This document shows, one piece after another, positions 43,229 to 46,918 of a stretch of DNA of 64,000 nt. The notes beneath the pieces are model-generated. The model was not told where the DNA came from. It ran no database searches and saw nothing but the letters and a program-made list of their open reading frames with translations. Every line of letters begins with the position of its first letter. Positions within the stretch are counted from its first letter, which is position 1. Position numbers and translations under genes: made by a program. Source of the stretch: Phycisphaerae bacterium (GTDB taxonomy: Bacteria; Planctomycetota; Phycisphaerae; UBA1845; Fen-1342). Location: the NCBI GenBank assembly GCA_022072445.1, contig JAJVHV010000007.1, positions 1 to 64,000 of the forward strand, written 5' to 3'.

Positions 43229-43309
43229 CTACATGGCGGCCCGCTTCTTCTTCTTGGCCTTCTTCTTGGAACCCTTCTTGGCCTTCTTTGCGGCTTTCTT
43301 CTTCGCCAT
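43229..43309 (-). CDS. Lysine-rich 26-aa micro-protein (histone H1-like tail)
   Basis: Read leftward from ATG 43309, the frame gives MAKKKAAKKAKKGSKKKAKK, then KKRAAM and a stop at 43229. It is about 60% Lys, like the Lys/Ala tails of H1-like nucleoid proteins, so non-specific DNA or RNA binding is expected. AAGGG lies just upstream. It sits 36 bp after the smc stop on the same strand and is probably co-transcribed, suggesting a link with chromosome packing (inference). Simple-sequence drift that happens to be open is the main alternative. Confidence 0.6.
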   Translation of the reverse strand: MAKKKAAKKAKKGSKKKAKKKKRAAM

Positions 43310-43345
43310 TTTTTCCCTTTCGAAAAAAAGGAAACGTAGAAACGC

Positions 43346-46300
43346 TCACGCCACGATTGGCGTTTGCACACGATCGTGAAAGCGGACGCTGACGCGCTTG
43401 CTGACGCCGGCCTCTTCCATAGTGACGCCGTAGAGCGCGTCGGCGCACTGCATGGTGGTCTTGCTGTGCGTGATGATGATGAATTGAGAATGAACGAGAA
43501 AGTCCTGTATGACCATATTGAAGCGTTCGTTGTTCGACTCATCAAGGGCCGCGTCGACTTCGTCGAGAATTGCGAAGGGCGACGGCTTGCTCTTGAAGAC
43601 GGCGAGCAGCAGCGCGACGGCGGTCATGGTCTTCTCGCCGCCGCTGAGCAGCGAGATGCTCTGCGGCTCTTTTCCGGGCGGGCGGGCGATGATCTCGATG
43701 CCGCATTCGAGCGGCAGCTCGGGGTTTTCGAGCACGATGTCGGCGCGGCCGCCGCCGAAAAGTTTGCGGTACAGCTCGCGGAAGTGTTCGCGGATCTGCT
43801 CGAAGGCGGCGGTGAAGCGGGATTGCGAGGCTTCGTCGAGTTCGCGGATGAGGGCGACGAGCTGCTCGATGGATTGGTTGAGGTCGGCGCGCTGCGCGAC
43901 GAGGTTTTCGTAGCGTGGGCTGAGTTCGTCGAGTTCGGCGAGGGCGTCGAGGTTGACGTTGCCGAGGCGTTCGATGCGGCCGCGCAGGTCGTCGATTTCG
44001 GCGCGGATCGCGTCCCAGTCCTGGTCGGCGTGTTGGTAGCTGGCGTAAAGCGCCGGGAGTTCGACGCCCAGCTCGTCGTGGATGCGCTGCACGAGCGCTT
44101 CGATGCGGACCAGCGCTTCGCGGAGTTCGATTTCGGCGGCGCGGCCCTGGGCGTCGGCCGTGTCGATGGCGGCGCGGAGCTGGCGGGTGCGGGTCGCGTG
44201 GGATTCGGCGGCTTCGCGCAGCGCGTCGCGCTGGGCGCCGAGCGCGAGGAGTTGTTCGGCGAGCCGGGCGGCGTCGGCGACGAGCGTCTCGCGGCGCTGG
44301 CGGGCGGCGACAATTTCGCCGGCGATCTGCTCGGCGCGGCGGGCGGCGTCGTCGATTTCGGCAGCGATCTGGGCCTGTTCGTGCTGGGCGGCGGAGCGCT
44401 GCGATTCGAGCCGTTCGAGGGAGGCGGCCAGCGCGGCGGACTTTTCGGCGAGGCGGCCGTGATCGACGCGCGCGGCGGTCAGCCGTTCGGTGGCGCGGCG
44501 CGACTGTTCCTCCGCGTCCTGTTGAGCGCTGAGCTGTGCGTCGATGCGGGCGGATTCGGCGGCGTGCGCCTGGGAGGCGTCGGCGCGCTGCTCGGAGAGC
44601 CGGCCGAGCGTTTCGTCGATTTCGGCCAGCGACTGGTGCAGGTGGTCGAGCTCGCGGTCGGTGGCGGCGAGCTGCTGCTCGACCCGCGCCGACCACTCGG
44701 CGAGGTTGTCGCGGCGGTGGCGGAGTTCGGATTCGCGGCGGGCGAGCTGCGTGTGCTCGTCGAGCGCGGCCTGGCGCTGGATTTCGAGGTCGGAGGCCTG
44801 GTCGGCACAGGCTGCGAGGGCGCGGGATTGCCGGGCGAGGTCGGATTCGACCTCGTCGAGTCGGGCGCGGAGGGCGCGGATCTCGGTTTTTCGGCTGATG
44901 AGGCCGCCGCCGCCGCCGCCGCGGCCGATGGCGAGGAGGCCTTCGCTACCGACGACGGTGCCGTCGGGGTCGATGAAGAGGAATCCGCGCGGGGCGTTGG
45001 CCGCGAGGGCCAGGGCGCGTTCGCGCGAGTCGACGAGGACGACGCGTTCGAAGAGCAGGTCGGCGAGCGGTTCGAAGCGCGGCTCGCAGGTGATGAAGCG
45101 TCGCGCGGCGGCGACGAAGCCGGGGGCCTGTTCGTAGGAAGTGGCGCGGTCGACGCCGGCGAGTCGGTCGAGGGCGAACACCTCGATGGCGCCGGGCGGG
45201 CCGCCGCGGCGCTGGAGTTCGCTGAGGAAGTTGTAGGTGTTGGCGACGACGAGGTGTTTCTCGAAGCGTGCCAGGACGCTTTCGAGCTGCGGGAGGTATT
45301 GGGCGTCGACGCGGAAAACGTCGGCGACGAGGCCGACGACGGGGGCGGACTCGGCCGGAGCTTCGTCGCGCCAGGCGAGAACGCAGCGCGTGGCTTCGTC
45401 GATGCCTTCCTGGCGCTGCTCCAGGTCTTCGAGCAGCTCGAGGCGCGAGAGCGCGGCGCTGCGCTCCTCGCGGCCGGCGGCGATGCGGGCCTCGGCGTCG
45501 CGGCGGGCGGTCTGGACGCCGGCGAGCGCGTCGTCGAGCCGGCGGGCGCGCTGCTGGGCGTTGGCCAGGAGGCGATCGAAGCCCGACAGCTCTGCGGCGC
45601 AGGCGGCGGCGGCGGCCTGGACGCGCTGGCGTTCGGCGGAGGTTTCGTGGCGGCGCTCCGCGAGGGCGGCGCGCTGCCGGTTGAGGCGCTCGGCCAGCGA
45701 GGCGAGGTTGCTCTGCTCGTTGCTGAGCAGGGCTTCGCGGCGGGCGGCTTCGAACGCCGCGGCGCGGAGCTGGTCGACGGCGAGGCGGGAATCGGCGGCG
45801 CGCTGCTCGGATTCGGCGGCGACGAGGCGGAGTTGTTCGAGGGTGCGTTCGTGCTCGGCGGCGCTGGCGGCGAGTGCGTCGCGCTGCGCGGCTTCGTGAC
45901 CGATGCGCTCGTCGAGGTACTGCAACTGGTTGACGAGTTCGGCATCGCGGGCCGCGCGGCGCTGGCGCGTCAGCTCGAGCTCCTGGCGGCGGTGCTCGGC
46001 CTGCGCGGTGCGTTCGAGCAGCGAAGCGGCCTCGGTATTGAGGCGGGCGATTTCAGCTTCGGTGTCGTGGATGTGCTGGTCGAGCGCCCGCTGGGCCGCG
46101 TCGAGGCCGGCGGCGTCGCCGTCGGCGGCGTCGAGCTGGTCGCGCAGGGCGAGCAGCTCGGCGCTGCATGTTTCGCAGCGCTGGGCGATGGCGCTGCGCG
46201 ACTGCTCGAGGGCGTGATATTCGGCCAGGGCGTAGGACGAGCGCAGTTCGCGGAGGCGCGACTGGCACTCGAGGAAGTTGCGCGCTTTGCCGGCGGCGAG

Positions 46301-46918
46301 CTTGACGCTGCGCAGGCGGCGCTCCACCTCGTCGATCACGTCGTTGAGGCGCAGCAGGTTGTTTCGGACGCGCTCGAGCTTGCGCTCGGTCTCGAGTTTG
46401 CGGACCTTGTATTTGCTGATGCCGGCGGCCTCTTCGAAGATTTCGCGGCGTTCGGCGGGGTTGGCGCGGAGCAGGGCGTCGACCTGGCCCTGCTCGATGA
46501 GGCTGTAGGCGTCGACGCCGATGCCGGTGTCGAGGAACAGGTCGCGGATGTCGCGGAGTCGGCAGCGCTCCGCATTGAGGCGGTATTCGCTGGCGCCGTC
46601 GGCGTAGAGCAGGCGTGTGACGGCGACCTCGTCGCGGTCGATTGGGAGGGTTCGGTCGGCGTTATCGAACGTGAGTTCGACTTCGGCGGCGTTGGCGGAT
46701 TTACGGGACCTGGCGCCGGCGAAGATGACGTCGTTCATGCGGGTGCCGCGGAGGCTTTTGGCGGATTGTTCGCCGAGGACCCATTTGATGGCGTCGACGA
46801 CGTTTGATTTTCCGCAGCCGTTCGGGCCGACAATTATGGTTATTCCGTGTCCGAAATCGAATTGGGTCTTGTCGGCGAAGCTTTTGAATCCGAGCATGAC
46901 GACGCGTTTGAGGAACAT
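43346..46918 (-). CDS. smc: Chromosome segregation protein SMC
   Basis: The 1190-aa protein begins FLKRVVMLGFKSFADKT and has Walker A GPNGCGKSNVVDA. A long Ala/Glu/Arg-rich coiled coil follows, then the hinge near the middle (VVGLVADVFRVDAQYLPQLE through SEGLLAIGRGGGGGGLISRK). The second coil leads to signature LLSGGEKTMTAVALLLA and Walker B FAILDEVDAALDE. It loops and compacts DNA with ScpA/ScpB, which are not in the window. ATG 46918 is preferred over 46945 because family members start with MFLK. The opposite strand shows a very long open frame, an artefact of GC-biased codon use. Confidence 0.97.
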   Translation of the reverse strand: MFLKRVVMLGFKSFADKTQFDFGHGITIIVGPNGCGKSNVVDAIKWVLGEQSAKSLRGTRMNDVIFAGARSRKSANAAEVELTFDNADRTLPIDRDEVAVTRLLYADGASEYRLNAERCRLRDIRDLFLDTGIGVDAYSLIEQGQVDALLRANPAERREIFEEAAGISKYKVRKLETERKLERVRNNLLRLNDVIDEVERRLRSVKLAAGKARNFLECQSRLRELRSSYALAEYHALEQSRSAIAQRCETCSAELLALRDQLDAADGDAAGLDAAQRALDQHIHDTEAEIARLNTEAASLLERTAQAEHRRQELELTRQRRAARDAELVNQLQYLDERIGHEAAQRDALAASAAEHERTLEQLRLVAAESEQRAADSRLAVDQLRAAAFEAARREALLSNEQSNLASLAERLNRQRAALAERRHETSAERQRVQAAAAACAAELSGFDRLLANAQQRARRLDDALAGVQTARRDAEARIAAGREERSAALSRLELLEDLEQRQEGIDEATRCVLAWRDEAPAESAPVVGLVADVFRVDAQYLPQLESVLARFEKHLVVANTYNFLSELQRRGGPPGAIEVFALDRLAGVDRATSYEQAPGFVAAARRFITCEPRFEPLADLLFERVVLVDSRERALALAANAPRGFLFIDPDGTVVGSEGLLAIGRGGGGGGLISRKTEIRALRARLDEVESDLARQSRALAACADQASDLEIQRQAALDEHTQLARRESELRHRRDNLAEWSARVEQQLAATDRELDHLHQSLAEIDETLGRLSEQRADASQAHAAESARIDAQLSAQQDAEEQSRRATERLTAARVDHGRLAEKSAALAASLERLESQRSAAQHEQAQIAAEIDDAARRAEQIAGEIVAARQRRETLVADAARLAEQLLALGAQRDALREAAESHATRTRQLRAAIDTADAQGRAAEIELREALVRIEALVQRIHDELGVELPALYASYQHADQDWDAIRAEIDDLRGRIERLGNVNLDALAELDELSPRYENLVAQRADLNQSIEQLVALIRELDEASQSRFTAAFEQIREHFRELYRKLFGGGRADIVLENPELPLECGIEIIARPPGKEPQSISLLSGGEKTMTAVALLLAVFKSKPSPFAILDEVDAALDESNNERFNMVIQDFLVHSQFIIITHSKTTMQCADALYGVTMEEAGVSKRVSVRFHDRVQTPIVA

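Follow-up and report, generated by a model that had tools for sequence, protein, structure and literature searches.

A lysine-rich micro-gene was found directly downstream of smc in the 64-kb stretch of DNA that was analysed (the window). The features of the locus are listed in Table 1. The smc gene ends with TGA and the ATG of the micro-gene lies 36 nt 3' of it on the same strand. The SMC protein scored 949 bits against the NCBIfam model TIGR02168 (cut-off 567). A sequence-only reading of the window had described a 26-codon Lys/Ala frame with a ribosome site and a stop at this position, and the open reading frame (ORF) list and the sequence confirmed it. The terminator scan returned no terminator-like site in the spacer on the micro-gene strand, and a terminator separating smc from the ORF was rejected on this basis.

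Table 1. Features of the smc locus in the window.
Feature	Position	Strand	Remarks
Lys-rich microprotein gene MAKKKAAKKAKKGSKKKAKKKKRAAM	43229..43309	-	ATG to TAG, 26 aa; ORF list and conservation in the family of the window genome
AAAGGG, probable ribosome-binding site	43315..43320	-	5 nt 5' of the micro-gene ATG
Spacer from the smc stop to the micro-gene, with a T-rich run	43310..43345	-	36 nt
smc, chromosome segregation protein SMC, 1190 aa	43346..46918	-	TIGR02168

The micro-gene was the sole ORF in the window that started with ATG, encoded at least 15 aa and contained at least 40% Lys. Counting both strands, the window has 311 frames that stay open from stop to stop over 100 or more codons, and smc alone among them had such an ORF in the next 70 nt. 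The pattern GG-N4-9-ATGGCNAARAARAAR occurred once in the 5.25-Mb genome, at the micro-gene. DNA coding for KKKxxKK was matched twice in the whole genome, both times within the micro-gene, and the reversed control pattern was matched once. The peptide had no match in Pfam or NCBIfam. The GC skew of the window changes sign at approximately 40 kb, some 3 kb away from the micro-gene; the site is a change in strand bias or possibly a landmark of replication.

Conservation was examined in the family of the window genome (f1). The collection contains 27 f1 genomes, 26 of them with a match to the SMC C-terminus. The census covered the 26 genomes in which the 3' end of smc could be read, including the window genome; this end was missing from G017. 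A Lys-rich ORF starting with MAK was present 3' of smc in 25 of the 26, at a distance of 31 to 59 nt (median 34), and 22 of these 25 ORFs started with MAKKK. No such ORF was present in G026 in the 100 nt between smc and the contig end. The SMC tail of G026 differs from that of its sister G016, and the absence may represent a loss or the end of the assembly. A tree was built from 64 rows (26 from f1, 30 from f17, a family of the same class but another order, and eight from other families of the window's order), and in it the f1 SMC sequences formed one group with support of 100/99. Genes within the next 1.5 kb were common only to f1 subgroups of six, four, two and two genomes. As the micro-gene is at the same spot in 25 of 26 genomes while its neighbors are limited to subgroups, it tracks smc and not a larger syntenic block. 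The sequence-only reading had staked its proposal on the frame being conserved 3' of smc in relatives; the outcome was favorable, and the retention of the micro-gene with smc, on the same strand, across a short gap and with no terminator-like site, is strongly supported.

A leader peptide for a downstream gene was rejected because downstream genes were common only to subgroups of at most six f1 genomes. Eleven candidate stretches of viral contigs with a related smc were considered and none was confirmed. The sequence GCGACATT was present 27 to 44 nt past the micro-gene stop in five of the 25 f1 members (G005, G013, G015, G019, and G023), four of which carried it in the form TGCGACATT.

On the micro-gene strand, AAG repeats contain no stop in any frame. 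An open frame in such DNA is weak evidence alone, and it is conservation in relatives that makes the micro-gene a gene. It is very likely real, since it is kept after smc in nearly all sampled f1 members. GAGG was located within 20 nt 5' of the ATG, after a pyrimidine-rich run, in 23 of the 25 f1 copies, the exceptions being G020 and the window copy, which has AAAGGG in place of the GAGG core. The first two bases of codon 2, and likewise of codon 3, were invariant in all 25 copies; ATG and MAK were both required by the census script, so the invariant start is partly by construction. The second codon always encoded Ala but its third base varied (GCA 9, GCT 7, GCC 5, and GCG 4). Sister genomes G009 and G025 differed by one in-frame 12-nt unit. 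Because Ala is fixed while the third base of codon 2 varies, and because the 12-nt unit is in frame, the micro-gene looks translated and selected as a protein.

The 25 f1 peptides ranged in length from 15 to 96 aa. Their 1,124 residues comprised 615 Lys (55%), 225 Ala, 89 Thr, 61 Val, and 44 Arg, with six Pro and no Asp or Glu. The pentamer KKK[AVT][AVT] occurred at least twice in 17 of the 25 peptides and once in the window copy. All 14 Cys residues were located in the last five residues of their peptides. A C-terminal Cys was present in 10 of the 25 and a CxxC end in four, while the window copy had no Cys.

The f1 relatives may resemble Hc2 (HctB), the H1-like protein of Chlamydia, and BpH1 of Bordetella in their Lys pentamers and in-frame length variation; the window copy has one such pentamer. 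Hc2 is described as having Lys-rich pentamers with Ala, Val, or Thr, two basic residues per pentamer, size variation through in-frame repeat units, a length of 165 to 237 aa and a non-repeat C-terminal part (PMC2848022). In contrast, the f1 peptides are 15 to 96 aa, often have three Lys per pentamer, consist of the repeat only and adjoin smc. The gathering score of the Pfam HC2 model (PF07382) was not reached; the window peptide had no match to it, and three longer relatives gave one HC2 match with an E value of 0.36 and 11.3 bits (cut-off 40). None of these three was near a cut-off in Pfam or NCBIfam. The product was not classed as Hc2 because of the Pfam result. By analogy, the peptide would work like the Hc2 repeat region.

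A second likeness is to the KPAA-repeat C-terminal domain of AlgP and PhaF in Pseudomonas, which shares an H1-like Lys/Ala repeat of variable repeat number. AlgP is predicted to have a disordered, H1-like Lys/Ala repeat that varies in repeat number, and a fragment of its H1-like tail binds DNA (PMC9239181). The AlgP tail is Pro-rich and has an N-terminal domain ahead of it in the same protein, whereas the f1 peptides are free-standing and almost free of Pro.

Positively charged tails are described on most bacterial face-to-face histones (PMC11390915). Histone-fold-like proteins with MAKKK Lys tails of variable length were found in class relatives (L153, L154, L155, L157, and L167). A profile of L153 to L155 and L157 matched solved DUF1931 and CBF/NF-Y-type chains (PDB 9qt0, E value 5e-26; 8cmp, E value 2e-7), which we take to be bacterial histones. 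The N-terminal tails of the class relatives have the same MAKKK start as the micro-gene product. No histone fold was found in the window ORF, which at 26 Lys/Ala-rich residues is too short and had no Pfam match. A histone-like gene on another contig of the window genome (L216:1495-1716, match C10:7627-7839) specifies a 73-aa product, MAKKSKGSAGGKSKSSRDVLVV...SYDL. A match to this gene was found in one of the 27 f1 genomes, the window genome itself.

Of the families sampled, only f1 showed the linkage to smc, which is not phylum-wide. Of the order's 87 genomes outside f1, 40 were searched, representing seven other families; in stretches of approximately 700 nt at the smc end, no 12-residue run with five Lys was found on either strand. 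Eight additional smc loci in the order but outside f1, five of them in genomes not among these 40, had no Lys-rich ORF. Among 30 smc loci of f17, four of which had less than 520 nt available 3' of smc, there were two short Lys-containing ORFs, neither starting with MAK; one of them, MQGIQGIKKKKKLRQR in L319, was 14 nt past smc. The sequence-only reading had placed the gene in a phylum with condensed nucleoids. Papers on condensed nucleoids in Planctomycetes, judged by titles and abstract openings, concern other genera, and nothing on f1 was found among them.

Similar peptides are encoded elsewhere in the class. The pattern GAGG-MAKKK-KKK was matched in 51 of 298 class-sample genomes (12 of 15 in f1 and 39 of 283 in other families); the window genome had no match to this stricter class pattern. 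Among 30 loci read from this sample, none from f1, 24 encoded stand-alone peptides of 16 to 144 aa, and the other six encoded longer proteins or Lys tails attached to another domain. No smc was found in the stretches around these 30 loci. Twenty MAKKK-starting genes at other sites in f1 genomes were fetched; two were short (40 and 42 aa), the rest were longer or ran off the contig end, and most were tails of longer proteins. The MAKKK start is therefore not unique to the smc locus. Like peptides in f23 and f25 were near lysA-like (Pfam) or nadD-like (by eye) genes, which are not chromosome genes, and in genome G113 of f7 a peptide gene was between phosphatase-like and formyltransferase-like genes (by eye). 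In a background sample of one family the matches, in six of 28 genomes, were the N-termini of proteins read as 146 to 505 aa. Long Lys-rich N-terminal tails on a further domain were observed in L071, L076, and L081. By eye this domain is presumably of the BCP-type peroxiredoxin kind. A Pfam search with a Lys-tail protein cut to 150 aa gave no match.

A second genomic context was found beside a ParA-type ATPase gene. In f17 a like peptide gene was located at most 700 nt upstream of this gene in 20 of 30 genomes, a count in which L189, L206, and L213 had no usable upstream sequence and were taken as misses and two counted loci (L192 and L215) had no MAK as called. In the window's order 102 genomes had a parA match, and 70 of them were read. 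A peptide gene was present within 900 nt upstream of parA in eight of 15 genomes of f7 and one of one of f5, and in none of those of f1 (0/20), f4 (0/10), f8 (0/21), f2 (0/2), and f6 (0/1), with five loci with short upstream sequence counted as misses (L266, 140 nt; L238, 129 nt; L244, 298 nt; L283, 519 nt; L236, 684 nt). One locus of f15, L159, also had the peptide gene upstream of a ParA-type gene. Among loci L186-L215 and L217-L235, stand-alone Lys-rich genes 5' of a ParA-type gene were thus observed in many f17 and f7 genomes and one f5 genome.

The ParA-type protein matched Pfam AAA_31. It was below every NCBIfam cut-off, so its own role in chromosome segregation is putative. No parB was seen near parA when the best-scoring neighboring ORFs of seven loci were inspected by eye. 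Low-complexity peptides can arise repeatedly, and the smc-linked and parA-linked peptides may therefore be non-homologous. In f8, smc and the ParA-type gene were close and divergent as judged by coordinates (G053:C46, G033:C4, and G103:C16).

On balance, the micro-gene probably encodes a stand-alone disordered Lys-rich peptide, resembling the tail of an Hc2- or H1-like protein without its body. This peptide would be translated along with SMC, probably off a shared transcript, and would bind DNA in the nucleoid. The product would be an intrinsically disordered Lys-rich polycation equivalent to a free H1-like tail. It would bind DNA by charge, neutralizing and bridging segments in the nucleoid, and SMC-mediated compaction and segregation would then act on a pre-condensed substrate. 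A DNA-coating role is plausible from the composition, the H1-like likeness and the ParA-type context in other families, and the micro-gene perhaps encodes a minimal DNA-packing protein with a role in chromosome organization.

An unlikely alternative is that the peptide is a general polycation that binds RNA, ribosomes, or polyphosphate instead of the chromosome, its position beside smc setting expression timing only. The composition permits this, as Lys-rich peptides can bind all three, and like genes lie beside metabolic genes in some class relatives. Hc2 binds RNA as well (PMC2848022), and polyphosphate granules need AlgP, which carries an H1-like tail, to be spaced evenly (PMC9239181). Against this, the gene adjoins smc in f1 and, in other families, a ParA-type gene, and this placement points to the chromosome.

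A condensin subunit that docks on SMC, ScpA, or ScpB, or that aids DNA loading, is quite improbable. The conserved smc linkage expected of an SMC subunit was tight in f1 (25 of 26) but was not found in the sampled genomes outside f1, where peptides of the same kind are encoded away from smc. Large hydrophobic residues are almost absent and the length varies from 15 to 96 aa, so no docking motif is evident.

Lys-codon runs are able to slow ribosomes, and the frame could act in cis, with ribosomes stalling where the smc message ends and thereby tuning the stability of that message, while the peptide itself is inert. This is very improbable given the position 3' of smc, the lack of conservation of the following genes across f1, a GAGG in 23 of 25 copies that favors output, and a more than sixfold range in length. 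A purine-rich DNA or RNA tract with no product, to which AAG repeats open in all three frames would lend themselves, is barely credible beside the conserved start, the ribosome site, the synonymous third-position variation and a folding that was no better than that of 200 shuffles (z 0.69, 155 of 200 as good), on which a structured RNA element was also rejected.

The DNA-binding tail remains the preferred reading. With an H1-like tail that lacks a body and has its gene next to that of a condensin, the locus is a clear example and open to experiment. If the peptide coats DNA, one locus would supply both charge neutralization and SMC action. Among known H1-like Lys-rich proteins we interpret it as a free-standing variant reduced to the tail, which would be made with the chromosome-organizing machinery. 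Among the papers listed, no title or abstract opening described such a gene 3' of smc or 5' of parA in these bacteria.

More tentatively, lone Lys tails across the class could constitute a distinct, minimal element of chromatin with genetic ties to segregation (smc in f1, a ParA-type ATPase in other families), and in the part of the smc-linked set that ends in Cys or CxxC this ending could allow redox cross-linking. Protamines are cross-linked in this way. Genes of 30 aa or less are near common gene-calling limits, and such genes may therefore be under-annotated, as eight of the 25 f1 copies are of this size.
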